Shown here piece after piece: positions 5,447 through 38,388 of a stretch of DNA of 42,542 nucleotides. The DNA comes from a virus. The number at the start of each line of letters is the position of its first letter. The stretch's first letter is position 1. The position numbers were made by a program, and so were the translations under genes. The DNA is taken from positions 1-42,542 of IMG/VR virus record IMGVR_UViG_3300010399_000017. One strand, written 5' to 3'. The notes under the pieces were generated by a model that saw only the letters and a list, made by a program, of their open reading frames with translations, was not told the DNA's origin and made no database searches.

Positions 5447-8029
5447 ATGGGCCGCCTGACGGAGCCCCTGACCTGCGGTCTCGTCACCGACCGCGACCCT
5501 GCACTCTTGAAGCCCGGACAGTTGCAGGGCATGAGGAACCTGGTCTACCGGAACGGCGCCGCTGCCCTCTGCCATGCCAGAGGCCGGTCCCAGTTCGGGG
5601 TGGTCTCCGCCGCCACGACTGCTGTGGCAGGTTTGCGGGACATCCACTTCGACAACGGCGACTTCTACCTGGTGGCGATGGCGGGGACCAAGTACCGCTA
5701 CGCGGCTGTCGGGGCGACGGGGACGTTCGCGGATCTGGCGACCATTACCTCAGGTACGAGCCTCGAGGTGGTCCACTACCGGAACCGGTTCTTCCTGATG
5801 AACGGGGCGTCGGCTGATTCCTCGGCCATCGGGACGAACGTCGTCGCTTACCTGTCAGCGACCAGTGCCGGCTCCGCCATCCAGACCCGGAGCCATGGCC
5901 TCCTGCCAGTGGAAGCGGCTCCGAATGTCGTGACTGCGGCGGGGGCATTCTCCCAGACGGTGACGGGGTACTACGAGTACTGGACGACTGAGGTCGCCAA
6001 GATCACGCAGGATGGGGCCATCCTGACGCTGGAGTCCGCCTATTCCTCGGACAACGGCGTCACCACCGTTCAGATCACCGCCACAGGGCAGCAGCCACTG
6101 ATCTCCCTGCCGACAGTCCGGAACACGAACACGACCCACTGGCGGGTCTACCGAAGCCCTAAGAAGGACCTAGGGACGGACAAGAAGTTCCCGGTCGGAT
6201 TCATGATCGCGGAGCTGGCTACCGGAGCTTCGTCGCACGCTGACACGACGGCCGTGGCATCAGCATCGAGCTTCCCGGCGACGTTCAACTCGACGGGCTA
6301 CTACTTCGGCTGGGCGTCAGCTTCGAGCATGATCTCGGACAACGGCGTCTATGCCTCGGGTACGGTCGGGTCGACCATCACCAATGTCCAGCAGAGCGCC
6401 TACAACTTCTCGCTCGGCGGGTTCACAGGGGTCGTCAAGGGCATCAAGGTCGAAGTTGAAGGCTATGTCAGCGCTGGCTCTGCCCCCTGTCCTGTCACTG
6501 TGACCATCGGTAAGCGGAACGCCAACAACGGTGGACGGCTGTTCCAGACGAACGTTGCTCGCTTCGGTCAGCGTCCCTACTTGGTGGACGTGGCGGCTTC
6601 CAAGAGTGGGCAGTTCACGAGCACAAACTCGGCGGCCCCGACACTGTTGTCACTGGGCGGGTCAGACGACCGCTGGTTCCCGACCAACGACACGGGCCTG
6701 ATCGACACCGACTTCGACGCCACGTTCATGGTCGTCCTGACGGTGGCCAAGGCCAATACGACGGTGGGTGTGGACTTCGTCCGCGTCACTGTCTACTACG
6801 GGGCCTCGGTGGACTCGACGGTCCAGTTCCCGACGGTCGTCTACACGTTCGGCGACATCACGGCCCAGGTCGCCAAGAACTTCCCGCCGCCCTCGTCCAA
6901 CACCGGGGACCTGTTCCAAGACCAGTTGGTGGTGAACGACATCTTGAATCCGAGCATCATCCGGTATTCATCGCCGGGGGATCCGGAGTACTTCCCACCG
7001 ACCTACTACATGGACTTCGAGACCCGGGAGAACGACCAGGTCAAGGCCATCCGGGTCGTCAACAACCGGTTGATCGTGGGGCTCAACACCTCCATCCATC
7101 GCGTGAACTACCTGCCCTCGGAGCGGGACTCGAGTTTCGACCGCGGCAAGGCATCGGAGGTCATCTCGCGCTTCTACGGCATCGTGAACGCGATGTGCTG
7201 CACGACGATCACGATCGATGGGGAAGCGGAGTTGTTGGCCTTCATCTCCAACAAGGGCCTGCACACGACCGATGGGTTCAACTTCATCACCCGGAGCAAG
7301 AACCAGGACTGGCGGCTCTACCAGTCACTGACGGCGACGAGCACGCCCATCGCACTTCTGAACGACCCGGAGAACCGGGAGCTGCTGTTCTACTTCCGCT
7401 GCGATGCGACGGCCTACGGGAACGAGACGTACCAGTGTCTGCACGCGAGCTACGCGCGGGAGGACATCGACCGCGACGGCAACTTCAAGTTCTCGGGTCC
7501 TGTCAACCATCGCAACTTCGCCAGCAGCAACTTCGCCAGTCTTGAGTCGGCGTGGGCGGTGGCGAGGACAGACGGCAGCACGGCCATCTACACGGGCTAT
7601 GGCGGGTCGGGTGCTTCTGCGACGGCTGCGGGGGCGGGGTCGGTGTACTTCGAGACCGGTATCAACATCCCCTCTCAGAACAAGAACCTGCGCTTCAGGA
7701 CCCGTCGTATCTATGCCGCAGGGATCACGGCTGAGTGGACGCTGGACGACATGTACGGGTACTGCGGTGCCAACTCTGATGGGTCCACGAACGACGCGAA
7801 TATCTCCTATGTCTTCATCGGCACCAAGACCAACGACACCGGTCTCATCAATCTTGGTGGAGGAAAGAACATCCAGCTTCAGGGACAACGACTGCACAAG
7901 GTCAGTCCCAAGCTGGTGACGGAGGGGCTGGAGGTCAGCGCCAACATCACGGCGACGGCGAACGACTTCCAGCAGGAGTTCATCGTGCTGGGCTCGAGGA
8001 ACTTGGGTCCCGAGCAGGCGGGGACGTGA
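5447..8029 (+). CDS. Tail nozzle / tail tubular B-like protein
   Basis: An 860-residue, largely beta-strand protein beginning almost directly after the connector gene. The N-terminal segment (LKPGQLQGMRNLVYRNGAA, then RGRSQFG) is typical of podoviral nozzle or hub proteins, whose subunits form the distal tube and carry beta-propeller-like repeats. Aromatic-rich repeats such as GDFYLVAMAG and YRNRFFLMNG (residues 70-125) fit such blades. A middle part (about 280-440) resembles an inserted carbohydrate-binding-like beta-sandwich. The segment FPPPSSNTGDLFQDQLVVND (about 485) resumes the propeller. It ends with GTGA overlap into the next gene. Expected in the virion tail. Confidence 0.7.
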   Translation: MGRLTEPLTCGLVTDRDPALLKPGQLQGMRNLVYRNGAAALCHARGRSQFGVVSAATTAVAGLRDIHFDNGDFYLVAMAGTKYRYAAVGATGTFADLATITSGTSLEVVHYRNRFFLMNGASADSSAIGTNVVAYLSATSAGSAIQTRSHGLLPVEAAPNVVTAAGAFSQTVTGYYEYWTTEVAKITQDGAILTLESAYSSDNGVTTVQITATGQQPLISLPTVRNTNTTHWRVYRSPKKDLGTDKKFPVGFMIAELATGASSHADTTAVASASSFPATFNSTGYYFGWASASSMISDNGVYASGTVGSTITNVQQSAYNFSLGGFTGVVKGIKVEVEGYVSAGSAPCPVTVTIGKRNANNGGRLFQTNVARFGQRPYLVDVAASKSGQFTSTNSAAPTLLSLGGSDDRWFPTNDTGLIDTDFDATFMVVLTVAKANTTVGVDFVRVTVYYGASVDSTVQFPTVVYTFGDITAQVAKNFPPPSSNTGDLFQDQLVVNDILNPSIIRYSSPGDPEYFPPTYYMDFETRENDQVKAIRVVNNRLIVGLNTSIHRVNYLPSERDSSFDRGKASEVISRFYGIVNAMCCTTITIDGEAELLAFISNKGLHTTDGFNFITRSKNQDWRLYQSLTATSTPIALLNDPENRELLFYFRCDATAYGNETYQCLHASYAREDIDRDGNFKFSGPVNHRNFASSNFASLESAWAVARTDGSTAIYTGYGGSGASATAAGAGSVYFETGINIPSQNKNLRFRTRRIYAAGITAEWTLDDMYGYCGANSDGSTNDANISYVFIGTKTNDTGLINLGGGKNIQLQGQRLHKVSPKLVTEGLEVSANITATANDFQQEFIVLGSRNLGPEQAGT

Positions 8030-9246
8030 AAGATTTCCCCGGGATCCCCTTCGCCTCGCTGCCGGATCCCACGGCCCCGGACTTCTCCAACCGACTCCGA
8101 AACATACTCGGCTCCATCGACGCATGGGCACGGGATGCTTCTCAGGGAATGTCACGGCTCAAGGCAGGACAGGCTCCCGGAGGGTCGGGGTCGTCAGTCT
8201 TTGGGAACTCGACGGTCACGCTGGCGAACGCGGGTAGTAACTCGGTCCAGCCGGTGTCCCAGTCCGGGAATATCCAAGAGTGGCGGGACTTCTCGGGGAC
8301 GTTGCGGGTCGCCATCGACCAGTTCGGGTTCCTGCGGTTCACGGCGAGTACGTGGACGATCTTGACGACGAGCGCCAATGCTGGCGTGACCACGGGGGGA
8401 ACCCTGTTCGGTCAGGGCCTGAGCATCATCACCTACCCGGGCGGAGTGACGGTTGCAGGAATCGACGCGACAGGGGCTGCGAGTTTCTCGAATCTTTCTG
8501 TAGCGTCTGGGCAGATTGTTGTGGACGCCGATGGATTCGTCGATTCGTTCACCATCAAGGACAGCGGCACAGGATTCATCGGTACCTTGACTTGGGTGGG
8601 CATGGGCTCGGGTGATGTCGTCACCATCCCCGCAGGTACTGCCACGCTACTTAGCGGCAGCAATACCATCAATGTCAGCAACAAGACGCTCCTGACATCG
8701 ACGGTGGTCCGCTGCAACACCGCTGCCGGGGTGACGTTCCAAGACAACACCGGCACGACGAAGCAGATGCGGTTCGACCTGTCAGGGATCACCGCAGGGA
8801 CCACGAGAGCCCAGAAGTGGCAGGACACCGCAGGCTCAGTGGTCACGGTCGGCAACACGGCGTCGGCCTCGGGTGTCTTGGGGACGATTGCTCTCACCGC
8901 CCAGACCAACAGCATCGCTGTCCAGACCATGCTCACGGGCAATGCTTCGAGCGCCGGACTCTACCGGCTGTCGTTCTACCTGAAGACCACGACGGCTGGT
9001 TCTGGTGGGGACGTGGTCAAGGTGACAGCGGCGTGGAATGACGGCGCGGCCCAGACGCTGGATGTCCCGATGCTCAACGCCACGGCCATCGTCAACAACC
9101 TGGACCTGGGGACCCTGAACGCCTTCGTCCAAGGTTCCATCGTTGTCAAGGCAGCCGCGAGCCAGAACGTGACGTTCACGACCACGGTAACCAAGGCTGG
9201 AACCCCGCAGTACAGCGTGGACGCCCGGATAGAGTCACTCGGCTAA
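8026..9246 (+). CDS. Putative tail fibre / tail-associated beta protein
   Basis: A 406-residue protein starting with GTG that overlaps the nozzle stop codon (GTGA). Residues 1-50 form a polar N-terminus with a helix (FSNRLRNILGSIDAWARDASQGM), a likely attachment region. The remainder is rich in serine, threonine, glycine and valine with alternating strand pattern and no cysteine-pair motif, as in fibre or spike shafts. Residues about 280-400 resemble a lectin-like sandwich (LYRLSFYLKTTTAG, then DVVKVTAAWN). No enzyme signature is visible. A baseplate or fibre role follows from order and composition. Confidence 0.55.
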   Translation: MKDFPGIPFASLPDPTAPDFSNRLRNILGSIDAWARDASQGMSRLKAGQAPGGSGSSVFGNSTVTLANAGSNSVQPVSQSGNIQEWRDFSGTLRVAIDQFGFLRFTASTWTILTTSANAGVTTGGTLFGQGLSIITYPGGVTVAGIDATGAASFSNLSVASGQIVVDADGFVDSFTIKDSGTGFIGTLTWVGMGSGDVVTIPAGTATLLSGSNTINVSNKTLLTSTVVRCNTAAGVTFQDNTGTTKQMRFDLSGITAGTTRAQKWQDTAGSVVTVGNTASASGVLGTIALTAQTNSIAVQTMLTGNASSAGLYRLSFYLKTTTAGSGGDVVKVTAAWNDGAAQTLDVPMLNATAIVNNLDLGTLNAFVQGSIVVKAAASQNVTFTTTVTKAGTPQYSVDARIESLG

Positions 9247-25067: not shown

Positions 25068-26042
25068 GTGCTCCGCACAGGGAAGTGCCCGGACTGTGGA
25101 GCCGAGATCGAACTCCCCCCGCTCCAGGTCGTCGAAGGCCGCGGTGCCCACACCGCCGACCTCTTCTGCGACAACTGCCATTGGTTCGGTACCGACGAGA
25201 CTTTCAAGACCAAGAGGTCTCTGCTCGTGTGGTCCGGTGGCCCCGGGGGTGAGGACTTGAACGAGGCCCAGACGCGCGCCCTGATCGTCGAGTACTTCAA
25301 GTACCCCGAATGGCATCGCTGGGACCATATCGCTCCCTACGGCACGACCAACACCGAACCCTTCATGGGTTTGAGGAACATCGCCCCCGCAGCAGCAGCG
25401 AACGAGAAGCTGTTCGGGAACGTGCTGACGTTGACCACCGATGCGCTATCGAATGGCGTCTGGGAGGCAAGTCGTCGATGGGATCCCATATTCCCCGGCT
25501 ACCAACAGTCAGGGTCGTTCGGCTCATCATTCTACTTCTCGATGCGGATGAATCGCTCTAACCCCGCCGGGGTCGAGTCAGGCGAGAAGTTCCAAGGCAT
25601 AGGTTGGGGTGATACCTGGAGCATCAACACGCCATGGAACACCAACTATGCCGCGGATGGGACCATGAACGCCACCGTCCAGCTCCGCTACAACTACCCG
25701 CAGACGCGCTTTGAGGTGTTCGTCTACTTCAACGACGGAAATCCCCCGGATGTCTACCCATGCGACTACCAAGCGGCGTTCGAGGTCGACCTGTTCCTCC
25801 CCGAACTGGCCCTTGAATGGGTCCTGAACGAGACTGCGGATACCGCAACGCTCAATGCCTACTTGAATCGTAGGCTCGCCATGAGCATCACCAACGCCAG
25901 ACTGCTGGAAATGCGGGGTTTCAGCACCCAAGGGCCATACATCTTCTGCACCCATGGTTCAGGCGCAGGCAGTAGGATCTCCGAAGCGAGTTGGTACGAA
26001 GGCCATATCTACCAGCCCCTGCCGCTCCCTCCGACAAGCTGA
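25068..26042 (+). CDS. Zinc-ribbon adsorption protein A, carbohydrate-binding-like
   Basis: A 324-residue protein with GTG start. Cys7-x2-Cys10 (CPDCGAEIEL) and Cys34-x2-Cys37 (FCDNCHWF) form an N-terminal zinc ribbon of about 60 residues ending near LLVWSGG. After a linker (60-90) comes a beta-rich domain (about 95-320) with many aromatic residues (PIFPGYQQSGSFGSSFYFSM; WGDTWSINTPWN), like a concanavalin or carbohydrate-binding sandwich. No signal peptide. The ribbon is almost identical in design to that of the next gene. A virion-attached receptor-binding role is inferred. Confidence 0.6.
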   Translation: MLRTGKCPDCGAEIELPPLQVVEGRGAHTADLFCDNCHWFGTDETFKTKRSLLVWSGGPGGEDLNEAQTRALIVEYFKYPEWHRWDHIAPYGTTNTEPFMGLRNIAPAAAANEKLFGNVLTLTTDALSNGVWEASRRWDPIFPGYQQSGSFGSSFYFSMRMNRSNPAGVESGEKFQGIGWGDTWSINTPWNTNYAADGTMNATVQLRYNYPQTRFEVFVYFNDGNPPDVYPCDYQAAFEVDLFLPELALEWVLNETADTATLNAYLNRRLAMSITNARLLEMRGFSTQGPYIFCTHGSGAGSRISEASWYEGHIYQPLPLPPTS

Positions 26043-26054
26043 CAGGAACGTCAT

Positions 26055-27227
26055 GTGCGAACCGTCGTCCCGTGCCCAGACTGTGGAGCCCCGGTCCCCA
26101 TCCCCTTGGTCCAGATCGTCAAAGGGGACTCGGCCGATGTCACCACCATCTTCTGCCGCAACTGCATGTGGACCGACTCCGATGAGATCTTCAAGTCCGG
26201 CCATGGACGTGCCTTGGTCGTCTGGGGCGGGGAGGAACTAGTGGCTGATACGAGACACCCCTACGTCTTCGTCCCCGTCTCCGAGGCGGTGTCGCTCAAC
26301 TCACGCATCAATGCGCTGACCACTGGCGGTACGGTCTGGCTCGAGCAGGGGAACTACGCCGCCGCAGGCGATGTCAGCATCACCCAGTCCAACGTCACCC
26401 TGCAGGGCGTGTCGCTCAACTCGACCTACATCCCCGGCAGTATCACCGTGAACTGCGATGGCCAAGTCAAGGTCCAGAACCTGACCGTCAAGGGGACCGG
26501 CAAGGCTTACGCCATGAAGATGTCCCACTCCGGCGGTATCGCTCGCTGCGAGCTCCGCAATGTCTGGATGGGAGCTTCTACGCCGTCCTCAGGCGATGGA
26601 CCCACCGGTCCCGGTCTCTGGCTCGAAGGTGCGATTGTGACCGTGGTCGACCACTGCGTCATGTCGTACAACGGTGGCGCGGGTCTCTACGTCAACACGA
26701 TCGTTCAGGCCGACTCGACCAACGCCAACACGTTCCGCGATTGCACCTTCAATGGCAACGGGACTTACGGCGTGCACCTGGAGATCGGTGGCGATGCCAT
26801 CGCTGGCTACATGCTGCACAAGTTCGAAGGCGGAAACATGGAGGACAACACGCTCAAGGATGTCTACGCCGATGGCGCGACGTTCATCAAGATCTCAGGC
26901 GTTGACTTCGAGAACAGCACCCATAGCTATATCAGCGGCGAGAACATCTTCTTGAACAACTGCCAGCCCGCGGTCATCGAGGACTGCAACTTCGTCATCG
27001 GAGGCGGTATCACCGTGACTCGTTTCTTCCAGATGGCCGGCTGCGCCCACGGCTTCGTGACCCGGAACCGTCTCTCGAGTGGCGGCGGAGCGACGTGGTC
27101 TCAGGGAGCCGTGGGTGTCTTCGATGACAGTTGCGTCCAATGCCTCGCCTACGACAACAACCTCCTGGGTTCAGGTCCAGGCAGGTTCATCAACAACCGC
27201 GGGTCTTTCCGAGGGTTCACCGCATGA
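26055..27227 (+). CDS. Zinc-ribbon adsorption protein B, beta-helix tailspike-like
   Basis: A 390-residue protein with GTG start (AGGA 9 bases before). Residues 7-37 form a zinc ribbon (CPDCGAPVPI, FCRNCMW) with the same cysteine spacing as the preceding gene. Residues about 75-375 are a right-handed parallel beta-helix of pectate-lyase type, with stacked repeats such as VTLQGVSLNSTYIPGSITVN and FRDCTFNGNGTYGVHLEIGG, as in phage tailspikes that cut or bind polysaccharides. Catalytic residues cannot be placed with certainty. It probably degrades host surface polysaccharide as a trimer. Confidence 0.7.
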   Translation: MRTVVPCPDCGAPVPIPLVQIVKGDSADVTTIFCRNCMWTDSDEIFKSGHGRALVVWGGEELVADTRHPYVFVPVSEAVSLNSRINALTTGGTVWLEQGNYAAAGDVSITQSNVTLQGVSLNSTYIPGSITVNCDGQVKVQNLTVKGTGKAYAMKMSHSGGIARCELRNVWMGASTPSSGDGPTGPGLWLEGAIVTVVDHCVMSYNGGAGLYVNTIVQADSTNANTFRDCTFNGNGTYGVHLEIGGDAIAGYMLHKFEGGNMEDNTLKDVYADGATFIKISGVDFENSTHSYISGENIFLNNCQPAVIEDCNFVIGGGITVTRFFQMAGCAHGFVTRNRLSSGGGATWSQGAVGVFDDSCVQCLAYDNNLLGSGPGRFINNRGSFRGFTA

Positions 27228-28072
27228 CCCGGCCGACCACTCACTGGCAGCGCGGTCTCCAGCACTTCAACGGCGTGCTGTTCCTCCCCAACTCCGTGGA
27301 TGGAACGGGTGGAGGTTTGGGTTCAGCGTGGTCGACCGATACCGCTGCCGCTGGCATCACCATCACCCATACCGGCGGATCGACGGCGTTCGACACGCAA
27401 CTCAAGCGCACCATCTACACGCAGGTGGTCACGGCCACGAACCAAGAACTGGGTCCGCGCTTGAAGAATGCCGGCGATTACCAGTTCTGGCTCGGCAACA
27501 ACACCGTCTCCGACAAGGACTACTTGGGCGGCTTCTACTTCTCGACCATCTTTCGTATCGGGGCGTGGCAGGCTGACACCGGTCGCCTGTTCGCTGGACT
27601 GACCGCGAGCGCCAACCCGGTCTGCATCTCCGACACCGAGCCCGCCAACACCATCGGCCTTTGGCATGAGACGACGGATGGTCAGGATGAGTTGTACATC
27701 GTCGCCGTCACGAACGCAGGCAGTCCCGGAGGAGTCACCAAGGTTCAGATCACGGACAACTCCGGAGCTGTTTCTCCGGCCGTCAATGCTCCGGGTATCC
27801 TCGCCGCAGGGGTAACGCTCATGTTCGAGATGTGGGCGTTCCCGAGTGCCGTGGGCACGGTCAACACCAACATCCGGCTTGCCAAGTTCAACGCCACGAC
27901 CAAAGCGGTCACTGAGGTGGTTTGGCATGCTGTCGGTGGCGGACCCCTGAACACCGCGATGATGGCCCCGCAGGTGCAGATGAGTAACGGGACTGCAGAC
28001 ACGACCGCAGGCCACTACGCCATCGAGGTCGCCAACGTCTACTGCACCTCGCCTTCAGGCGAACTGCTGTGA
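27224..28072 (+). CDS. Lectin-like tail-associated protein
   Basis: A 282-residue protein in ATGA overlap with the beta-helix gene. It lacks the zinc ribbon. The sequence is beta-rich, with aromatic strands (YLGGFYFSTIFRIGAWQ; TLMFEMWAFPS) of a jelly-roll/concanavalin type, suggesting carbohydrate binding. It is placed in the middle of the adsorption locus, so it may be a partner of the ribbon proteins. No active-site motif recognised. It ends in GTGA overlap with the hydrolase gene. Confidence 0.55.
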   Translation: MTRPTTHWQRGLQHFNGVLFLPNSVDGTGGGLGSAWSTDTAAAGITITHTGGSTAFDTQLKRTIYTQVVTATNQELGPRLKNAGDYQFWLGNNTVSDKDYLGGFYFSTIFRIGAWQADTGRLFAGLTASANPVCISDTEPANTIGLWHETTDGQDELYIVAVTNAGSPGGVTKVQITDNSGAVSPAVNAPGILAAGVTLMFEMWAFPSAVGTVNTNIRLAKFNATTKAVTEVVWHAVGGGPLNTAMMAPQVQMSNGTADTTAGHYAIEVANVYCTSPSGELL

Positions 28073-29595
28073 AAGGCCAGTACGTCTGCCCTGACTGTGG
28101 CGCGCCTGTCCACCACGGCGTTCAGATCGTCAGCAACGACAACCCGCCCTTCCAGCGCTTCAAGTGTGAGTCCTGCGGACGTGAGGGCATCACCGAGGAC
28201 CTGGAATACAAGCGAGGACTGACCGTGTTCGCTCATCGTGGACGGCCGCATACACAACCCAAGGGACAGGGCGGTGGTGCAATCGTCACCGACCCCGACG
28301 ACTTCCCGCGTATCTGGATGTACTATGGCACGAACGGCTTCGGCATTCCGGCTCTGACCACGCAGACGTTGCCGGGCACGGAGCCCTCGTGGAACGAGAC
28401 TATTCTCAACAAGATCGCGCGCTGGCAGATGATAACCATCAACACCCAGCCGTTCCTGACGACCGGACTCGAGCAGAACTACGCCATCATCGCCAAGCTG
28501 AGACTGGCGAACCCGACCGTGAAGCTGCTGTTCTACGACCAGGTCACCCAACGCGACATCAACGTCGCGCCCGGCTCGCCATGGACCGCCATCTGGGACT
28601 TCGTCTCCGCAGGTCCAGACAAGCGCATGTACTGTCAGGATGGGACCGGGTGGATCTACAACATCGCCTCACCCATCTTCTGGGACATCGGTGACACCGG
28701 AGCCGCGGCAGGACTCGCAGTCATCTGGAAGGCGTTCTCTCAGGGCAAGGCTGACGGATACTTCTTGGACACCATCGTCAGTCCCGCCAACAGCAACAGC
28801 GTGAACTCATCGCCCTTGAACTACGCGGCGCTAGGCTACGCCAGTCTTCAGGATGCGAAGGACACCGGGCGTGCAGCGAACACGACATTTATCAACGCCC
28901 TGCTCGGCACGGGAGAGGTCTGGATCAACCGTGGTGTTCAAGACGCTCATGTGGCTAATGCCACGACTTTCTCCTGTAATGGCGAACTGTTCGAAGGTTG
29001 GGACCCGACGGCCGGCGGGCTTCAAGACTTCATCCCACTGGACCAGCAATACCCGGGCGGTAACAGCGCTGCGTGGAACTTCAACACCGCCATGACGCAC
29101 GGCTGTCTGTGGCAGGGAGCGAGCCCGACCGGGCGGGGGTCGTTCCTGATCAAGTCCGAGACGCTGACGCCATCTCCGAACCGCACGCATTTGAACCGGT
29201 CCATTCGCTACACGTTAGCGTCCGCCGCCATCTGCGGTGGCATGGCCTACATCGGCAACAATCGTGACGGTACGAACGACCCCGATATGTGGGCCGACGA
29301 GTACGCGGTCAATCTTGCGACCGGGACCTCGGACAGCACGGGTGCGCGCACGAGTCGTGGCTGGTTGGGGAAGCCCACCGAGTTCGGGCACCTGGATGCG
29401 ACCTCAGGGATGTGGGTCCGCCACTTTGACCGCGGCGTCGTCGTCGCCAACGGCCCCGGGTCCACGCAGCAGATCAACCTCGGCAAGCCCTACCGCCGTC
29501 TCCGCGGCTTCTACGACACCTCCGTCAACGATGGTAGCCTTGTCCAGACGCTGAGTGTGCCGGCCAAGGACGGCCGCTTCCTCTTGAACGGTTGA
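28069..29595 (+). CDS. Zinc-ribbon glycoside hydrolase-like protein (GHL15-like)
   Basis: A 508-residue protein, GTG start overlapping the upstream stop. Residues 7-36 form a zinc ribbon (CPDCGAPVHH, KCESCGRE). Residues about 80-420 resemble the hypothetical glycosyl hydrolase GHL15 TIM barrel: strands ITINTQ and KLLFYDQ, an ADGYFLDTI aspartate, VWINRG, NGELFEGWDP glutamate, and a C-terminal sandwich with FDRGVVVANGPGSTQQINLG then YRRLRG and DGRFLL. It probably hydrolyses a surface polysaccharide. Substrate unknown; the family call is by recognition. Confidence 0.7.
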   Translation: MKGQYVCPDCGAPVHHGVQIVSNDNPPFQRFKCESCGREGITEDLEYKRGLTVFAHRGRPHTQPKGQGGGAIVTDPDDFPRIWMYYGTNGFGIPALTTQTLPGTEPSWNETILNKIARWQMITINTQPFLTTGLEQNYAIIAKLRLANPTVKLLFYDQVTQRDINVAPGSPWTAIWDFVSAGPDKRMYCQDGTGWIYNIASPIFWDIGDTGAAAGLAVIWKAFSQGKADGYFLDTIVSPANSNSVNSSPLNYAALGYASLQDAKDTGRAANTTFINALLGTGEVWINRGVQDAHVANATTFSCNGELFEGWDPTAGGLQDFIPLDQQYPGGNSAAWNFNTAMTHGCLWQGASPTGRGSFLIKSETLTPSPNRTHLNRSIRYTLASAAICGGMAYIGNNRDGTNDPDMWADEYAVNLATGTSDSTGARTSRGWLGKPTEFGHLDATSGMWVRHFDRGVVVANGPGSTQQINLGKPYRRLRGFYDTSVNDGSLVQTLSVPAKDGRFLLNG

Positions 29596-29603
29596 GGCAC
29601 AGC

Positions 29604-30431
29604 ATGAGAGTAGAACTCTACTGCCCCAGTTGCGGTGAAGAGGTCCGCCCGACTCTCATGCCGCCGCCGAGTGACTACACCTGCGAAGGCTGCAACGAGA
29701 CGATGCCTCGGACCAAGCTGACCAAGATAAAGGTCCTGAATCGCCGCATCGCGGGCGTGGGTATCGGCAACACCATGACGGCTAGCGTGGTTGGGACCGG
29801 TAGCTTCTTCGACGCCACGCAGGCGACTTCGAGCCTGACCATCCCCAACTGTGTCTTCCGAGCCGGAGATTGTTGTGTTGTCTGTCTTGCGATGGAGCTT
29901 GCTGGTGGAACCAGCGATCCTGCGAGCGTGAGTGTCGGCGGTCAGGCTGCTACCAACAACAACACGAGTGCTGCTGGAGATCTAGGCATCAATCAATGGG
30001 ACCGTGGCAACCTTACGGCTGGTAGCAAATCAGTGGTCATCAGTGTGTTCGGCGCCAATCCCACAGCATGTGCTGCCGTGGTCGTTGCTGTTAGCAGGGC
30101 CAGACTAGCCGTTGACCCATTTGACGGTTTCGGTAGTGGTCAGACTGTAGGAACTACATTCGACAGCGGCTCTTTGGTTCCTTCGTTCAACTTTGAGATG
30201 GCCATTGCCATGGTCGGTTCCGAGCAGAACAACGCTGTCAGTTCTTGGGGTAATGGCTTCACTGCTCTATCCGGTGGTCATGTGGCGACCAATCAGGGTG
30301 GACCGCCTCAAGATGTCACCGTGGATGTTGCCATCAAGGCGCTTTTGAACACTGACCCGGTTCAAGTCACAGGCACGATTGGGTCCAGTGCCCAGAACAT
30401 TGCAGGCATCATCACCATCAGGCCGCAATGA
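29604..30431 (+). CDS. Zinc-ribbon adsorption protein C, beta-rich
   Basis: A 275-residue protein. ATG 29604 (GAGG upstream) is preferred to TTG 29592 because it puts the first cysteine at residue 7, as in the three other ribbon proteins: Cys7, Cys10 (CPSCGEEV), Cys27, Cys30 (CEGCNETMP). The remainder (60-275) is rich in valine, glycine, serine, threonine and asparagine, a beta-sandwich pattern (VVISVFGANPTACAAVVVAV). The gene is visibly less GC-rich than its neighbours, suggesting recent acquisition. Receptor-binding role inferred. Confidence 0.6.
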   Translation: MRVELYCPSCGEEVRPTLMPPPSDYTCEGCNETMPRTKLTKIKVLNRRIAGVGIGNTMTASVVGTGSFFDATQATSSLTIPNCVFRAGDCCVVCLAMELAGGTSDPASVSVGGQAATNNNTSAAGDLGINQWDRGNLTAGSKSVVISVFGANPTACAAVVVAVSRARLAVDPFDGFGSGQTVGTTFDSGSLVPSFNFEMAIAMVGSEQNNAVSSWGNGFTALSGGHVATNQGGPPQDVTVDVAIKALLNTDPVQVTGTIGSSAQNIAGIITIRPQ

Positions 30432-30958
30432 CGACCGAATCCAGACCTCGTGTCACCGTCGATGAAGCGATGGAGATCCTCTCCGACATCGCTCGTAACG
30501 GTGAAGGTGCGGAGAAATTCCGCGCTCTCAAAGTCATCATGGCCCAAGAGACCGGGAGCGTGACCGTGCCCGAGCCGATGAACGACGAAGAGAAGATAGA
30601 GACCCTGTCCATGCTCATGGAGGCCATGGGTCCCGTTGGCTGCCAGTTCGCCTACCGCAGAGCATTTCCATGGGCCAAGGAACCCGTCAATAACGCCGTC
30701 ATCAAGGTCCAGGCGGGGATGCTGGATGTCGACGAGAAGAAACTCCCCAAGACCCTGAAGCATTTGTACCGGCTCTTCCCGGAGATCAAGCGCGGCGGCT
30801 TCCCTACCGGCTACCCGGTGGGCAAGGGGATGGAAGAGAAGAAGCAATGGTGCCAGAAGGAAGCGATGCGGATCCTCTTGGACCGGAAGCAAGCCGAGGT
30901 GGCCCCGCCCCCGAACATGGACGAAGACGATGCTCCAGCCAAACCGACCGAGTCGTAA
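30428..30958 (+). CDS. Putative small terminase subunit
   Basis: A 176-residue, mostly helical protein in ATGA overlap upstream and overlapping the large terminase gene by 29 bases. Such a pair is the rule for TerS-TerL. The N-terminal helices (VDEAMEILSDIARNGEGAE) could form the DNA-binding part, and residues 60-140 carry conserved-looking aromatic and basic residues (FAYRRAFPWAKEPVNNAV). The C-terminal tail is acidic and proline-rich, which in small terminases contacts the large subunit. The call rests on position and size. Confidence 0.55.
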   Translation: MTTESRPRVTVDEAMEILSDIARNGEGAEKFRALKVIMAQETGSVTVPEPMNDEEKIETLSMLMEAMGPVGCQFAYRRAFPWAKEPVNNAVIKVQAGMLDVDEKKLPKTLKHLYRLFPEIKRGGFPTGYPVGKGMEEKKQWCQKEAMRILLDRKQAEVAPPPNMDEDDAPAKPTES

Positions 30959-32666
30959 CGGCTACCGCCAGCGTCGTCACAAGAACTACGGCTGGGACGC
31001 CGTGGCTCATACTCGTCTTCTGCGAGAGTTCTGCCGGAAGGACTTCTGGCTATTCTTCAAGCTCGCCTTCGGTGCGTGGAACAACCCGAAAGGCAAGCGC
31101 TGGATCGACCCTGAAGTCCACAAGCCTCTGGCGACATGGTTCCAGAAGCACGTCGATGAATGGTTCGAGTGGCGACGCCATGGCCTGAAGAAGCAGAAGT
31201 ACCTGGCCATCCTCGTTCACCGCGAGATCGGCAAGACCACGCTCATCACCCGCGCCGGCCAGCTCTGGCTCCACCTACGCGACCCGGAGATGGCCTCAGC
31301 CACCGGAGCCGAGAAGGAAGGTCTCGCGGGGAAGATGCTCGAGGCGATGAAGTCGGTGTTGGATGGCTCCGACCCCCATGCTTTGTGGGCGAGACTCTAC
31401 GGGGACTGGTCGACCTCGGCCCGCAAGTGGAGTGGCAAGGAGATCGTTCACTCGGCACGGAAGAACACGTCTCGACAGGATCCCTCGATGGTCATCTTCG
31501 GCGTCGAGACCTCCATCACCGGCAGTCACCCCGACGCCCTCTTTTACGACGACCCCATCTCCTACGAGCGCTTGACCACGGACACCAACTGGCTGGAGAC
31601 GGTCAACTCGCAGATCAGCTCGCTCATCCCGGTCGTCCAAGGTGATGGATTGGTTGTATGGGTGGGGACGAGGTACGACGAGGAAGACCACTTCGGCGTT
31701 GCCTTCCGGAGCTCGGGTGTCGCCTCGGTATCGGGGATGGAGACGGACTCGATCCCGCTGGACCCCGAAGGCGACATCCACGTCTACTTCTTGGCCGGCA
31801 GGAACGCCAAGGGGGAACCCACGACGCCGCTGGTCTGGCCGGAGTCTCGACTCAAGCGCTTCGAGAAGACCGATCCTCTGCGCTACGCTGCCCAGGTCAT
31901 GAACGACCCGAGCATCTCCGAACTGAATCCCATCACCCGCGACCAGATCCAGCAGTGCGGGGTGGAGAAGAAGGAAGTCCCATGGTCCAACCTCCGCTTC
32001 GCCATCTGCTGTGACACGGCGTTCTCGGATGGCTCGAAGGTGACGTCCAAGGACGAGACGGTGATGATCGTCCACGGCTACCCTCGGAACGGGACAGGGG
32101 ATGTCTACGTCATCGAGGGTCATGGGAACGCGACGATGCGGGCTGAAGACTTCGGTAAGTTGCTGGTCTCCACGGTCCAGCGTTACCGGCGCCAGGGATT
32201 CCACATTCTCGCCATCACGGATGAGAAGACCCGGGCCGGCAAGAAAGATTCGTGGAGACTGGCACTTACCAACTTCTTCTCCGACGTCAACGAGCCCATG
32301 CCTCGCTTCATCGAGTTCGAGCGCGGAGCGACCAAGAAGTACGAGAGACTCCACTCCGCGACCACGTTCTGGGTTGACGGCCATGTCCGTTGGGTCAAGG
32401 ACGCCCCGGGGATAGGGCGTCTATGTGAGCAGATGGCTCGCATCGGGCAGTACGCCGTCAACCCTAAGATCAAGATCGACTGGGCCGACGCCCACTCCGA
32501 CGCCTTCCAGACGGAGCTTTACCAGCCGATGAGACGTCAGGAGCAGCGGACCCCATGGGACCGCGGGGCGACCCCGATTCATGTCGATGGCATGAACCCC
32601 GGGGACTTCGACTCCGACGAGGTGCGGAACTGGCAGTCACTGGTTCCGAGGGAACCCATTCGCTAG
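30930..32666 (+). CDS. terL: Terminase large subunit
   Basis: A 578-residue packaging motor that pumps DNA into the procapsid and cuts the concatemer. ATPase domain: HREIGKTT at 97-104 is the Walker A (a terminase-style variant with His-Arg-Glu in place of glycine), and ALFYDD at 203-208 is Walker B. Nuclease domain: CCDTAFSDG (Asp362) begins the RNase H-like fold, and DWADAHSDAF near 505-520 gives the last acidic residues. Length fits. It precedes the glycan cassette with a 9-base gap; portal is 7.2 kb away instead of adjacent. Confidence 0.92.
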   Translation: MLQPNRPSRNGYRQRRHKNYGWDAVAHTRLLREFCRKDFWLFFKLAFGAWNNPKGKRWIDPEVHKPLATWFQKHVDEWFEWRRHGLKKQKYLAILVHREIGKTTLITRAGQLWLHLRDPEMASATGAEKEGLAGKMLEAMKSVLDGSDPHALWARLYGDWSTSARKWSGKEIVHSARKNTSRQDPSMVIFGVETSITGSHPDALFYDDPISYERLTTDTNWLETVNSQISSLIPVVQGDGLVVWVGTRYDEEDHFGVAFRSSGVASVSGMETDSIPLDPEGDIHVYFLAGRNAKGEPTTPLVWPESRLKRFEKTDPLRYAAQVMNDPSISELNPITRDQIQQCGVEKKEVPWSNLRFAICCDTAFSDGSKVTSKDETVMIVHGYPRNGTGDVYVIEGHGNATMRAEDFGKLLVSTVQRYRRQGFHILAITDEKTRAGKKDSWRLALTNFFSDVNEPMPRFIEFERGATKKYERLHSATTFWVDGHVRWVKDAPGIGRLCEQMARIGQYAVNPKIKIDWADAHSDAFQTELYQPMRRQEQRTPWDRGATPIHVDGMNPGDFDSDEVRNWQSLVPREPIR

Positions 32667-32675
32667 GGAGAGACG

Positions 32676-33929
32676 ATGGAACGCACGAAGCTGAAGGCGA
32701 CCGCGACCAAGGAAGGCACCATGACCATCGACGAGAAGCCCGAGGTGTACGCCAAGCGTACAACCTGCCGTGCCTGCCACGCCGAGAACTTCGAGCCCGT
32801 CATCTCGCTCGGGGACCAATACCTCGTCCGCTTCGTCCCCGCCATCGACCTCTCGCTCCCGAGGGCCCCGCTGGACTTGGTGAGGTGTGCTCAATGCGGG
32901 CTCTTGCAGTTGCAGCACACAGTCGAACCCGACCTCTTGTTCCGCGAGTTCTGGTACCGCTCGGGGATCAACGAGTCGATGCGGGATGCGTTGAGAGACA
33001 TCGTCGACTCAGTGCAGGGCTACAAGCGCGAAGGCTTGTGGCTGGACATCGGGGCCAACGATGGTTACCTGCTTTCCCAGGTCCCGGACAAGTTCAAGCG
33101 CATCGCCTGCGAGCCCGCGCGGAACTTCCACACCGAGTTGCACAAGGTCGCGGACCACGTCATCGAGGACTATTTCACCGCTGACAACGAGTGCCTGTGG
33201 CGCTCCACCCGGGTCGGAGGCTGCGATGTCATCACCTCGGCTGCCATGTTCTACGACTTGGACAACCCCGACCGTTTCGTCGCTGACATCTCGAATGTGC
33301 TGGCCCCCGGAGGTGTTTGGGTCAACCAGCTCAACGACTCCCCCAGCATGGTCCAAGCCAACGCCTTCGACTCCATCTGCCACGAGCACCTCTGCTACTA
33401 CGACATCTTCAGCCTCCGTGAGCTATACGCCCGCCATGGGCTGGTGATCGTCGACGTCACGCACAACGACGTGAACGGCGGCTCGATGCGGGTGTTCGCC
33501 CAGAAGAAGGTGGCAGGCGTTCAGCCCATGAGCATCGCTCACTTCCGCAAGGTCTCGAGCAGCGATGCCCAGCACTTCGCGGTCCGGGTGAAGAAGTGGA
33601 AGCAGGCCATGGGCGAGATCCTCGACGTCCCCGGGAAGCCATGGTGGCTCTACGGCGCGAGCACGAAGGGCTGTGTCCTGCTCCAGTACCTGGACTACCA
33701 AGGGGCCTTCGTCGGCATCGCTGACAGGAACCCGACCAAGCACAACCTGTTCATGTCGGGATCGTGGCTTCCCATCGTCAATGAGGACGAGATGCGGACG
33801 GACAAGCCCCAGAGGCTGATGGTTCTGCCATGGGCGTTCCGGGACGAGTTCGTCAAGCGCGAACGCCCGCTTCTGGATTCCGGGACCGTCATGGTCTACC
33901 CGCTCCCTAACATCGAGTTCGTTCTTTGA
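32676..33929 (+). CDS. C-methyltransferase for nucleotide sugars (TylCIII/NovU type)
   Basis: A 417-residue SAM-dependent enzyme with the three domains of sugar C-methyltransferases: a zinc-binding N-terminal part (Cys31, Cys34, Cys71, Cys74), a SAM-binding core (LDIGANDG at 123-130), and a C-terminal domain with HEHLCYYD, then YGASTKGCVLL. Known members add a methyl branch to keto-deoxy sugars on a nucleotide carrier. ATG 32676 has AGGGAGAG before it; ATG 32721 (residue 16) has AAGGAAGG and is a real alternative. First gene of the glycan cassette; no dehydratase gene for its usual substrate is seen, so a host sugar is implied. Confidence 0.85.
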   Translation: MERTKLKATATKEGTMTIDEKPEVYAKRTTCRACHAENFEPVISLGDQYLVRFVPAIDLSLPRAPLDLVRCAQCGLLQLQHTVEPDLLFREFWYRSGINESMRDALRDIVDSVQGYKREGLWLDIGANDGYLLSQVPDKFKRIACEPARNFHTELHKVADHVIEDYFTADNECLWRSTRVGGCDVITSAAMFYDLDNPDRFVADISNVLAPGGVWVNQLNDSPSMVQANAFDSICHEHLCYYDIFSLRELYARHGLVIVDVTHNDVNGGSMRVFAQKKVAGVQPMSIAHFRKVSSSDAQHFAVRVKKWKQAMGEILDVPGKPWWLYGASTKGCVLLQYLDYQGAFVGIADRNPTKHNLFMSGSWLPIVNEDEMRTDKPQRLMVLPWAFRDEFVKRERPLLDSGTVMVYPLPNIEFVL

Positions 33930-34600
33930 ACGGGCGGGTGCTGGTGATGTGTGCGACTCGGAACCGGCCGCAGCAGTTCGCGGCCATGGTCGAGTCGGTG
34001 CGGAAGACCAGCACCAAGGCCGACCTTGTCGCCTACGTCGATCAGGATCAGCGCGAGATGTACGAGACCGTCGAAGCTGACATGTTCTTCGGCGAACGGG
34101 TCGGGCAATGCCGTTCCCTGAATGAGCTGGCCCGCAGGATGCCCGGCTATTCGGCCTACGGCTCGGCCACGGATGACTGCATCTACGAGACCCCGGGCTG
34201 GGATGCATGGGTCCTGAAGAACGCCCATCGCCTGACCGCCTTCGCCCCGTTCTGCGAAGCCTACGGGCGTATGGACTTCCCCTGGGTCAGTGCGCGTTGG
34301 CTCGAGGCTGCTGGCTATTTCTGCCCGCTGGAGACGCGGCATTTCTACTGGGACGTCGCACTCCAGATCGCCGCTGAAGACGTCGGGCTTCTCTCCGCGA
34401 CCAAGGAACAGTTCCACATCAGCCACAGCAACATGGAGTGGTTCGGTGAGGAGATGAACGACGAGAACGGGTTCAAGACCGGGGTGGGTCTTTCCGCCTA
34501 CTACATTCACCGCGACGCCATGGTGTCGATGATCTGGCTCGCGCATGATCGTCGGGCGTTCGTCGAGAAGCTCCGGTCCAAAGCCTTGGTGGCAGCGTGA
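33926..34600 (+). CDS. GT-A-like glycosyltransferase paralogue a
   Basis: A 224-residue protein, probable TTG start overlapping the previous stop. It has the cassette's GT signature: CATRNRPQQF at 9-18, YVDQDQ at 37-42, GERVG at 56-60, and the acidic metal site TDD at 82-84, then WDAWV. The segment GRMDFPWVSARWL followed by FYWDVALQIAAE is closest to paralogue d (37699-38388). Nucleotide-sugar transferases of the GT2 fold use such DD/DXD sites with a divalent metal. Acceptor unknown. Confidence 0.65.
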   Translation: MNGRVLVMCATRNRPQQFAAMVESVRKTSTKADLVAYVDQDQREMYETVEADMFFGERVGQCRSLNELARRMPGYSAYGSATDDCIYETPGWDAWVLKNAHRLTAFAPFCEAYGRMDFPWVSARWLEAAGYFCPLETRHFYWDVALQIAAEDVGLLSATKEQFHISHSNMEWFGEEMNDENGFKTGVGLSAYYIHRDAMVSMIWLAHDRRAFVEKLRSKALVAA

Positions 34601-35241
34601 ACGGCCGCATCGGGGTGTTGATCCCGACTCGGGACCGCCCGCAGCACTTCGAGCGCGCGGCTAGGTCGGTCTACAAGACCGGACTCAAGGTTGACGTGCT
34701 GGCCTACATAGACGACGACCAGGAGAAGGACTACCCCGACACCATGTCAGGGGTGAAGCGTCTCATCGGTCCCCGCATCGGGCCCGTGGCTTCAGCGAAC
34801 GCTTTGGTCGAGAGGTTCCCGGACTACTCGGTCTATGGGCTCATCACCGACGACACAACCATGGTCTGCCGGGATTGGGACGAATGGGTCTTGGCAGCGA
34901 TGGACTCCATGGCAGGCAGGATCGTTGTCGTCTCCCCGCGCCACAATCTCGGTGAGCATGTCGACATGCCCTTCGTTTCCCGGGAGTGGATCGACACCGT
35001 GGGCTGGTACGCCTGCCCCGACTTTTACCACTTCTGTTGGCCCGTGCTCCTGGGGCTGATGGGGCAATTGACCTGTCTCGTCTACCCACCCGAGCAGGCG
35101 TTCTCGGTCCATCACGAAGGGCTGCCGCACACGAACCTGCAGGCACTGTTCGAGGACAAGATGGGGTTCTTCGACTACGTGGCCCTGAAGATGCCCCCGA
35201 TCATCGACAAGCTGCGTGCGGCGCAGCAATTGCCGGTATGA
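34597..35241 (+). CDS. GT-A-like glycosyltransferase paralogue b
   Basis: A 214-residue protein with GTG start in GTGA overlap. Motifs: PTRDRPQHF at 10-18, YIDDDQ at 37-42, GPRIG at 58-62, TDD at 84-86, WDEWV, and GWYACPDFYHFCW. The last element and the GPRIGP motif make it closest to paralogue e (38385-39035). Tandem with paralogue a, both starting MNGR. Likely cytoplasmic, using host nucleotide sugars. Confidence 0.65.
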   Translation: MNGRIGVLIPTRDRPQHFERAARSVYKTGLKVDVLAYIDDDQEKDYPDTMSGVKRLIGPRIGPVASANALVERFPDYSVYGLITDDTTMVCRDWDEWVLAAMDSMAGRIVVVSPRHNLGEHVDMPFVSREWIDTVGWYACPDFYHFCWPVLLGLMGQLTCLVYPPEQAFSVHHEGLPHTNLQALFEDKMGFFDYVALKMPPIIDKLRAAQQLPV

Positions 35242-35912
35242 GCCGCGGCCCGGTCTACATGCCGCCCCCGGGTACGAACCTCGCCTACAACGGCGAACTC
35301 GCCAACTACGTCATGTCGTTCTTCCCCGAGGGCTATCAGGGCTGGGCTATCGACGTCGGGGCGTCAGACGGGGTCTCAGTCAACTCCACCTACGGGCTTG
35401 AGAAGGCGGCCAAGTGGACCGTCATATCGGTGGAGGCGAACCCCAACTGGTGGCCGATGCTGCAGAAGATGCGGACCTTCGTCGAGCGCTGTGCGGTCTC
35501 CAACTTCTCAGGGGAGGCGACGTTCCACATCAACGACGACGAGCCGGAGTCGTTCTCTTCACTGAAGAAGCCGGACATGACCCGGACCTATCCGGCCCCG
35601 AACAAGACTGAACCAGCACCCAAGCCGGGGAGATCGTGGAGCAAGGCCCAGGTCAAGGTGAAGACTCTGGACGAGATCCTTACCCGCTGGCAGTTCCCGC
35701 AACTGGACGTCCTCTGCGTGGACACTGAAGGGACCGAGCTGGACGTGCTCGAAGGCCTCGACTGGAACCGGTGGAAGCCGAAGGTGGTGGTCATCGAATG
35801 CTGGGAGCCGATGAGCCCCTTGGACCTCTACATGGAGGCGATGTACTACAGGAAGACCGCCAGGAACGTCCACAACGACGTCTGGGTGAGGCGTGATGGC
35901 CATCTACTCTGA
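35238..35912 (+). CDS. FkbM-family methyltransferase 1
   Basis: A 224-residue SAM-dependent methyltransferase. AIDVGASDGVSVNSTYGLE (about 36-54) is motif I, VISVEANPNWW (about 62-72) the acidic ribose-binding loop, and VLCVDTEGTELDVLEGLDW (about 155-173) the FkbM D-x-E-G-x-E core. FkbM enzymes O-methylate sugars and polyketides and are frequent in surface glycan clusters. ATG 35238 overlaps the previous stop (ATGA). First of three tandem FkbM genes, and the most diverged. Confidence 0.85.
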   Translation: MSRGPVYMPPPGTNLAYNGELANYVMSFFPEGYQGWAIDVGASDGVSVNSTYGLEKAAKWTVISVEANPNWWPMLQKMRTFVERCAVSNFSGEATFHINDDEPESFSSLKKPDMTRTYPAPNKTEPAPKPGRSWSKAQVKVKTLDEILTRWQFPQLDVLCVDTEGTELDVLEGLDWNRWKPKVVVIECWEPMSPLDLYMEAMYYRKTARNVHNDVWVRRDGHLL

Positions 35913-36465
35913 CAACGGGGTGGATAAGGCTCTGGAGTCGTTGCTGCCGGCGTTCGGCTACGCTTGTGACGTCGGGGCCAATGACGGGGTCTTCAACAGC
36001 AACACGCTGGCCTTGGAGGAAAAGGGTTGGCTGGTCCTCTGTGTCGAGGCGAATCCGATGTTGGAGGAGCTTGGACGGGCGCGGAGAAAGCTATGGCGGT
36101 CCGTGGCTGTTGGGGACCGGGATATGGACGACGTTGTCTTCCATATCTGTGGTCCGATGTCTCCTTGGCCGAGTCGATCCTCGTTGGGACTTAGGGATGG
36201 CGGAGCCCCGGCTGACCAGACCGCATTCGTCTCTGTACGCAGGTTGGACCGGATTCTCAAGGAAGCCGGCTTCCCAAGGCTCGACCTGCTGACAGTCGAC
36301 GTCGAGAACTGGGAACGCGAGGTCATGGCAGGGTTCTCGGTCGAACGCTGGAAGCCCAAAGTCATCGTGCTCGAGGAATGGACTGACGATAACTTGGCCA
36401 TCCCCGGCTATACGATCCTGAAGAAGCTGTCGTACGACAACATCTACGTGAGAGACGCAGCCTGA
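35896..36465 (+). CDS. FkbM-family methyltransferase 2
   Basis: A 189-residue enzyme. YACDVGANDGVFNSN (about 21-35) is motif I, LVLCVEANP (about 45-53) the SAM ribose site, and GFPRLDLLTVDVENWEREVM (about 127-146) the FkbM core, with Asn-Trp in place of the usual Gly. It is highly similar to gene 3, so the two arose by tandem duplication. ATG 35896 has GGTGAGG upstream; GTG 35893 is an alternative. It overlaps gene 1 by 17 bases. Confidence 0.85.
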   Translation: MAIYSDNGVDKALESLLPAFGYACDVGANDGVFNSNTLALEEKGWLVLCVEANPMLEELGRARRKLWRSVAVGDRDMDDVVFHICGPMSPWPSRSSLGLRDGGAPADQTAFVSVRRLDRILKEAGFPRLDLLTVDVENWEREVMAGFSVERWKPKVIVLEEWTDDNLAIPGYTILKKLSYDNIYVRDAA

Positions 36466-37046
36466 TGGCCTACTACTCGTCCAACGGAGTGGACCGGGAA
36501 GTGGAGCAGTACCTGCCCTCTTGGGGCTACGCCTGCGACGTGGGGGCCAATGACGGGGCTTCCACGAGCAACTCCCTCTGCTTCGAACAGATGGGTTGGT
36601 ACGTGTTGTGTGTGGAGCCGAATCCCAACTTCGCTGAAGAAGCGCGGAAGCACCGGAAGCTCTGGCGGCAGGTCGCTGTCAGCGATAAGAACGGGGAAGC
36701 CCTGTTCACTCAGTTCGGTCCTCACCCATGGGGTGGTTCTGGGCTCAAGGACCTGTTGAACCTCCGCGCCAGTTATCCGCGGGATCACGAGGTCCAGACG
36801 ATGGTCCAGACCCGGACGCTGGACACGCTCTTGGAGGAAGCAGGGTTCCCGAGGCTCGACTACCTGACGGCGGACTGTGAAGGTTGTGAGCCCGAGGTCC
36901 TTGCCGGATTCACGGTCGAACGCTGGAAGCCGCGGGTGATGGTGTTCGAGAACAACAAGGTCCGCAGTCCTTTCAGCATCCCCGGCTACGTTCATGTGGG
37001 CACGCGGGAAGTGGACGAAGTCTACATCCGGCAGACACCAGCATGA
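36465..37046 (+). CDS. FkbM-family methyltransferase 3
   Basis: A 193-residue enzyme. YACDVGANDGASTSN (about 22-36), YVLCVEPNP (about 46-54) and GFPRLDYLTADCEGCEPEVL (about 126-145) match copy 2 nearly throughout, including AGFxVERWKPxV downstream. Here the core keeps E-G. ATG overlaps the previous stop by one base (TGATG). Retention of two close copies suggests methylation of two positions or of two sugars. Confidence 0.85.
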   Translation: MAYYSSNGVDREVEQYLPSWGYACDVGANDGASTSNSLCFEQMGWYVLCVEPNPNFAEEARKHRKLWRQVAVSDKNGEALFTQFGPHPWGGSGLKDLLNLRASYPRDHEVQTMVQTRTLDTLLEEAGFPRLDYLTADCEGCEPEVLAGFTVERWKPRVMVFENNKVRSPFSIPGYVHVGTREVDEVYIRQTPA

Positions 37047-37702
37047 CGAACCGAAGCCCGGTGACGGTCCTGATCCCGACCCGTGGGCGTCCGCAGTGCT
37101 TCAAGGACGCCATCGAGTCGGTGTGGAAGACGTCCTCCGCATGGGTCGTTGCCTACCAGGATGATGACGTCGACATGGCTGGCTACCCCACCGATGGCTA
37201 CAAGCTGATTCATGGGAAGCGCGTTGGAGTCTCGGGGGCCTTGAACGCGATGGCTCAGCATGTCATGGAGGAGCGTCCGTGGACGGAAGTTCTGGCCATG
37301 ATGACCGACGACTCCCTGATGATGACTCCGCGCTGGGACGACTTCGCTATCTCCGTGGCGCGGCGCTTCCACAAGGGGATCGGAGTCATCTCGCCGCGGT
37401 CACACAAGGGTGGGGTCCATCGGGTGGACCAGCCGGCGGTGACTATGGGGTGGTTCAAGCACTATGGCTACTTTGCCTACAAGGAAGTCGGTCACTACTG
37501 CTGGCCCAACGTCATCGGGCTGACCTCGGAACGTCTGTGCCTCTACAAGTGTTCCGCTCAGGAGTGGGAGATCGAGCACCGGCAGGTTGGAGGCCGGGAC
37601 CCGGCCTTTGCCTATGACTCGGAGCGGTTCTACGAGTGGGTTGCTTGGCACATGGAAGAGGCTAGGACGGCACTTGAACGGACGCTTGAGGTAGTGCCAT
37701 GA
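37043..37702 (+). CDS. GT-A-like glycosyltransferase paralogue c
   Basis: A 219-residue protein with ATG in ATGA overlap. Motifs: PTRGRPQCF (about 12-20), YQDDDV, GKRVG, MTDDSLMMTPRWDDF (about 86-100) and a C-terminal GYFAYKEVGHYCWPNVIG. It is the most diverged of the five paralogues. The TDD acidic site and the N-terminal nucleotide-binding strand point to a GT-A fold. It follows the three methyltransferase genes. Confidence 0.65.
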   Translation: MTNRSPVTVLIPTRGRPQCFKDAIESVWKTSSAWVVAYQDDDVDMAGYPTDGYKLIHGKRVGVSGALNAMAQHVMEERPWTEVLAMMTDDSLMMTPRWDDFAISVARRFHKGIGVISPRSHKGGVHRVDQPAVTMGWFKHYGYFAYKEVGHYCWPNVIGLTSERLCLYKCSAQEWEIEHRQVGGRDPAFAYDSERFYEWVAWHMEEARTALERTLEVVP

Positions 37703-38388
37703 CAGTCCTTGCCATCTGTGCGAGTCGTGGACGTCCGAGATGCTTGTCCGAAATGCTAGGGAGTTTCATTTCTACCTCAAGCACAGCTCACATCTGCATC
37801 TACCTTGACGTGGACGACGAGCATAATTACAGCCGTGTGGGACATGACCGCGTGATGTACATGGTTGGGGAAAGGGTCGGTCACCTGGATGCTCTTGACC
37901 GCATCATCGAAACCCATCCCGGCTACAAGGCTTATGGGCTTGCCACAGATGATTGTTCTTTCATGACTGAGGGATGGGATGGTCATGCCGAGAGGCTTGC
38001 GGAGAGTTTTCCTCACGGCATCGGAGCATTCGCTCCGTTCTTTGGTCTCATGGGCAGGATGGACTTTCCATGGGTGACTTCGGGATGGCTGAAGGCACTT
38101 GGGACCTATGCGCCCAACAAGTGCAAGTTCTATTACTTCGACATCGTCATTCAGATCTTGGCTGAACAGCTCGGCATCATGGGTTTTGCTGGAGAGAATG
38201 AGTTTGCCATGCAGCACCATAGCGTGGTGGGGACTGAACAGGACCCAGATCGTGAGAAGGGACTCAAAGACAAGAGCATGGCTGCATTCATCGACGGTCG
38301 GAACACTTGTTATTGGCTGCAGGATGGACGGCGAGAGGCAGTAGCCAAGCTAAAAGCTGCCTTGGCTGCGCGCGAGGTGATGGCATGA
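37699..38388 (+). CDS. GT-A-like glycosyltransferase paralogue d
   Basis: A 229-residue protein, ATG in ATGA overlap. ASRGRPRCL (about 8-16), YLDVDD, GERVG, TDDCSFMTEGWD, and GRMDFPWVTSGWLKALG then FYYFDIVIQILAEQLG. The last elements match paralogue a. The gene is less GC-rich than its neighbours (for example around 37740-37850), which suggests separate transfer or ongoing divergence. Confidence 0.65.
   Translation: MTVLAICASRGRPRCLSEMLGSFISTSSTAHICIYLDVDDEHNYSRVGHDRVMYMVGERVGHLDALDRIIETHPGYKAYGLATDDCSFMTEGWDGHAERLAESFPHGIGAFAPFFGLMGRMDFPWVTSGWLKALGTYAPNKCKFYYFDIVIQILAEQLGIMGFAGENEFAMQHHSVVGTEQDPDREKGLKDKSMAAFIDGRNTCYWLQDGRREAVAKLKAALAAREVMA

Follow-up and report, generated by a model that had tools for sequence, protein, structure and literature searches.

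Why should neighbouring genes of one virus, encoding wholly different domains, begin with the same small cysteine module? The question is raised by a five-gene cassette, g1 to g5, in a virus contig of 42,542 bases (IMGVR_UViG_3300010399_000017, positions 1 to 42,542), the whole of which was analysed and is referred to here as the window. A 25-base direct repeat, CCGTCAGAACATGGACGCAGGCGCC, occupies the record ends (1-25 and 42518-42542), as in a circular assembly; hence, this is probably a complete genome, circular as assembled. It encodes a large terminase (phrog_38), a portal-like protein, a major head protein and an endolysin, together with a nozzle-like gene and a fibre gene that were assigned from position and size. 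The closest cultured terminases are ~22-27% identical, and several of the phages that carry them are, from their names, presumably podoviruses. We sought a host through prophages, and the terminase was absent from a collection of 84,980 species genomes. The features considered are:

5447..8029, + strand: probable tail nozzle or tubular protein, from size and position; identity 48-69% across most of the clade
8026..9246, + strand: conventional tail fibre candidate; ~60-residue conserved Cys-free N-terminus, variable middle, C-terminal domain conserved in long-ribbon genomes
25068..26042, + strand: g1; N-terminal ribbon (Cys 7, 10, 34, 37; module ~25068-25247) and a head, put down in the preliminary description as a carbohydrate-binding-like sandwich
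26055..27227, + strand: g2; N-terminal ribbon (Cys 7, 10, 34, 37; module ~26055-26234) and a parallel beta-helix head
~27224..28072, + strand: g3; ribbonless, position conserved in relatives
28069..29595, + strand: g4; ribbon (Cys 7, 10, 33, 36; module ~28069-28248), GH168-like TIM-barrel hydrolase and C-terminal beta domain
29604..30431, + strand: g5; ribbon (Cys 7, 10, 27, 30; module ~29604-29759) and beta-sandwich head
30428..30958, + strand: probable small terminase, by position, with no family match; overlaps g5
30930..32666, + strand: large terminase (phrog_38, E 7e-44), the marker used to find relatives (47 viral loci)

The cassette lies 5' of the terminase genes, with replication-type genes on its other side. 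Most of its genes overlap or almost touch the next gene, and this dense arrangement, running into the terminase genes, suggests late co-expression. Between terminase and portal (32745-39880) are a sugar C-methyltransferase (PF08421/PF13489/PF08484), three FkbM-type methyltransferases (PF05050) and unassigned genes; similar-looking genes are found near the terminase in L017, L042 and L043. These methyltransferases may modify a glycan of the host or the virion. A glycosyltransferase-like gene (3219-4544; phrog_7162, E 1e-24) stands among the structural genes, between those for head and tail.

A four-cysteine module in four of five genes

As a preliminary description of this DNA had noted, four of the five consecutive genes (g1, g2, g4 and g5) open with a C-x2-C...C-x2-C module whose first two cysteines are residues 7 and 10. 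For g5 this numbering assumes the ATG at 29604; a TTG at 29592 would place the first two cysteines at 11 and 14. The ATG is preferred as the start, with support from relatives. The g1 and g2 modules have identical cysteine spacing, again as described, and by alignment are homologous, being 47% identical over 53 residues (E about 1e-14); the shared extent is thus slightly less than the "most of about 60 residues" first claimed. An N-terminal double C-x2-C was found in only 5 of the 47 longest-ORF genes, with 4 of those 5 in the five-gene cassette (hypergeometric 1.4e-4), and of 20,000 shufflings of each protein, 0 to 10 produced the motif within the first 60 residues. We conclude that the pattern is far beyond chance. 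The double C-x2-C ribbon is absent from g3, both in the window and in relatives; g3 is nevertheless kept beside the ribbon genes and is a possible partner or adaptor of their products.

In an alignment of 22 ribbons the four cysteines never vary, mean column identity is 35%, and little else is conserved; the loop between the two knuckles varies from 8 to 23 residues. With both C-x2-C knuckles present, the module has the make-up of a C4 zinc ribbon and probably binds zinc. It resembles known zinc-ribbon domains (TFIIS, the Zn_ribbon/DZR families and the ECs_2282 family NF047912) in its two cysteine knuckles, mostly CPxC, and in weak profile matches. Unlike those families, it is the N-terminal module of adhesin-like phage proteins and falls below every curated cut-off, since searches of the window proteins against curated zinc-ribbon families gave sub-threshold matches only. 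AF2 models of g4 and g5 place short strands at the ribbon, with block pLDDT of ~53-82, which would suit a beta-ribbon fold. In the g5 model, residues 43-53 have pLDDT below 50 and form a poorly ordered linker between ribbon and head.

Distribution and shuffling of ribbons and heads

Two scans with the large terminase yielded the 47 viral loci. By pattern, ribbon-headed genes are present in 20 of these, at one to four per contig, several of the contigs being near-duplicates; a ribbon profile added L016 and L044, for a total of over 20 uncultured contigs. In contigs of the terminase clade, every ribbon gene lies in this slot, with replication genes on one side and the terminase on the other. Where terminase identity is ~60% or lower, ribbons are mostly missing, so the trait is clade-limited. 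The most widely distributed cassette gene is g5, and no cultured relatives of the g1, g4 or g5 proteins were found among 50,697 phage records. Other proteins in the loci with an N-terminal double C-x2-C are few: some are small and unrelated, and there is a sugar methyltransferase, encoded next to the terminase, whose spacing differs; L022 has a second, atypical ribbon-like stretch. A short basic-proline N-terminus (L001, L002 and L022) was considered as a second type of tag and dropped, the L022 protein having a C-x2-C...C-x4-C further in.

Ribbons and heads do not keep the same partners. At the same first cassette position, a g1-type ribbon (47-49% identical) precedes a g5-type head in L006, L025 and L026, whereas the g1 head stands behind a different ribbon in L010, L011, L012 and L014. 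In the window, and in L006, L025 and L026, the g2 beta-helix follows a ribbon; its homologues in L010, L011, L012 and L014 (45-51% identity) have none. The g4 head occurs without a ribbon in L001 and L002 (77-80% identity), as does the g1 head in L003. Related phages thus carry ribbons on other C-terminal domains, as the preliminary description had proposed to check, and their ribbons do not seem confined to non-structural cytoplasmic proteins. The earlier claim that one N-terminal tag precedes wholly different domains is borne out by these unrelated heads and swaps, and the swaps, on sequence comparison, argue most strongly for the ribbon as an exchangeable module in its own right.

A conserved N-terminal module, different C-terminal heads and recombination between them are features of modular phage receptor-binding proteins. 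Depolymerases and receptor-binding proteins of Klebsiella phages (PMC8262889) and tailspikes of E. coli phages (PMC10408124) combine a conserved N-terminal anchor with exchangeable C-terminal heads and undergo horizontal transfer; the window likewise joins a conserved N-terminal module to exchangeable specificity or enzyme heads. It differs from those systems in that the module is a four-cysteine ribbon of 50-60 residues, present in up to four copies per genome, and in that the genes lie next to the terminase, apart from the conventional fibre candidate, with a presumed tail attachment. The anchor-plus-head logic is already known; what is most likely added here is a new N-terminal four-cysteine assembly module on modular adhesins. 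As the preliminary description had supposed, we found no account of a zinc-ribbon anchor or tag on receptor-binding or adsorption proteins in the literature searched, although absence there is not proof.

Heads of probable adsorption and glycan-attack type

The heads of g2, g4 and g5 are of adhesion, spike or depolymerase type. For g2, the proposed parallel beta-helix is confirmed by a match to PF13229 (E 6e-8). For g4, the label of GHL15-like hydrolase found no support: we detected no Pfam GHL15 match at E up to 1, in HMMER searches whose filters drop most weak matches, and the AF2 model, itself of low confidence (mean pLDDT 61), instead has the fold of GH168 endo-fucanases (Foldseek E 4.5e-10; VIA Z 18-20, with the next family at most 14.7). 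Like these enzymes, g4 is predicted to have a TIM barrel and a C-terminal beta domain; unlike them, it is phage-encoded and ribbon-bearing, and shares 12-16% sequence identity with them. The catalytic Asp/Glu of the GH168 enzyme FunA are D206 and E264 (PMC11943901). Aligned with 6 homologues, g4 keeps D234 and E309 without exception, and these may be its own catalytic pair.

The g5 model is good (pLDDT 87) and agrees with the beta-sandwich originally suggested. Its head is uninformative against PDB by VIA (best Z 5.4) and matches, in BFVD, predicted minor tail proteins from phages of mycobacteria and Gordonia (for example Tweety, Gaia and Tonenili) at TM about 0.6, "minor tail" being an annotation and not a test. 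Tweety gp21 (296 aa), which agrees in length, differs from g5 in having a different, Cys-free N-terminus. The ribbonless g1-head homologue of L003 forms the C-terminal part of a protein whose gene is flanked by those for head closure (phrog_82, 9e-7) and the tape measure (phrog_2854, 1e-7), which is the setting of a siphovirus head-tail operon.

The cassette adjoins the terminase and is far from the nozzle and fibre genes, and the same slot is of adsorption type: in L046 it holds a ribbonless canonical tailspike (PF12708 3e-17, phrog_2234 9e-14). The C-terminal 48 residues of this tailspike (L046:3831-5333) show similarity to a family of head fibres (phrog_20838, E 4e-6), a hint that products of the slot might attach to the capsid and not to the tail. 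No cassette protein has an evident signal peptide. From sequences and models together, an adsorption or glycan-attack role of the cassette proteins is highly probable, and we consider it likely that they are located in the virion. The swaps, the tail-associated head homologues and the L046 tailspike give good support to the view, put forward at the outset, of an adsorption locus with interchangeable heads.

Possible roles of the ribbon

We favour the following explanation. The phage would be short-tailed, and the cassette would supply its proteins for adsorption and glycan attack, probably expressed late and each made in the host cytoplasm. The N-terminal 50-60 residues would form the four-cysteine, probably zinc-binding ribbon, followed by a flexible linker and an exchangeable head (beta-helix, GH168-like hydrolase or beta-sandwich). 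The ribbon would act as an assembly tag fixing heads to the virion; several heads would be displayed, and recombination would swap heads without changing the attachment part. We give this explanation as a whole an even chance, and a docking role for the ribbon, taken separately, is likewise a balanced judgement. More tentatively, a metal-stabilised ribbon could be a general virion-docking tag, with paralogous ribbons in one particle showing different adhesins and enzymes beside a conventional fibre, and heads swapped behind the tag. Several points speak against reading the ribbon as a tag. Ribbonless heads in the same slot suggest that the ribbon is not needed for head retention; the ribbons have few residues in common besides the cysteines, so that no common docking surface is apparent in the alignment; and a conventional fibre candidate with a different N-terminus is encoded elsewhere.

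The last two of these points bear on whether there is one common tail socket, as the preliminary description proposed. The nozzle candidate (5447..8029) had no database match, and a profile search against PDB gave nothing. The fibre candidate comes after this gene, and its first 60 residues, without cysteine, are kept in most relatives. Its C-terminal domain is conserved in long-ribbon genomes, so the ribbon heads may have taken over from the usual variable fibre tip. In some ribbonless relatives this domain is a separate gene. We ruled it out as a socket exclusive to ribbon phages, since ribbonless genomes have it too. Fibres are 288-410 aa in long-ribbon genomes, including one pieced together across record ends, and 501-966 aa in ribbonless genomes (Mann-Whitney p 0.002); this shortening was dropped as evidence because the long-ribbon genomes all belong to a single terminase clade and p is 0.066 after adding other ribbon genomes. 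With a separate fibre that has a Cys-free N-terminus, and ribbons sharing little beyond cysteines, a common socket is not supported, and docking of all ribbons on a single one is rather doubtful. Ribbon heads could sit on the fibre, the tail hub or the capsid.

Three other explanations deserve weight. The proteins may be virion adhesins and depolymerases whose ribbon is a cap for folding, oligomerisation or stability, with attachment through the head or through another protein such as g3. Heads of g2 type that lack a ribbon in the same slot, g4-type heads that lack one in other contigs, the variable inter-knuckle loops and the conservation of ribbonless g3 beside the ribbon genes would all suit such a cap. 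However, the ribbon invariably stands right at the N-terminus, in g5 a flexible linker sets it off, and it recombines without regard to the head. An anchor would be expected to show these traits, and we consider the cap unlikely. A lower probability still attaches to soluble glycan-active or sugar-binding proteins that are freed at lysis and form no part of the virion, the ribbon having a minor, structural role. Phages are known to make free depolymerases, and the cassette is indeed away from the nozzle and fibre genes; but homologues of its heads occur in a siphovirus head-tail operon and among minor tail proteins, the slot can hold a canonical tailspike, and free enzymes need no common N-terminal tag on heads that only bind.

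Finally, the ribbons might bind nucleic acid or a cytoplasmic protein of host or phage, in regulation or packaging, as many zinc ribbons do, and the heads would then be incidental. Profile searches do find a generic similarity of the ribbons to nucleic-acid and RNA-polymerase ribbons, and the cluster abuts the terminase genes. Yet the ribbon modules mostly carry a net charge of -3 to +2, near neutral or acidic, with up to +8 in one, which lends no support to nucleic-acid binding, the heads are extracellular-type folds and a hydrolase, and many terminase relatives have no ribbon. We regard this explanation as very improbable.

The pattern that favours the assembly tag resembles a mix-and-match kit for gripping bacterial surfaces, in which one cysteine module, which may fix the proteins to the virion, is combined with different sugar-binding and sugar-cutting heads. 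If the ribbon docks, a single particle could carry several unrelated heads by means of a small, autonomous attachment module. The anchor-plus-head principle established for phage adsorption proteins would in that case extend to a metal-ribbon anchor, a concrete and testable tag. Its N-terminal signature would then find adhesins in uncultured phages even where their heads have no recognisable homologue.
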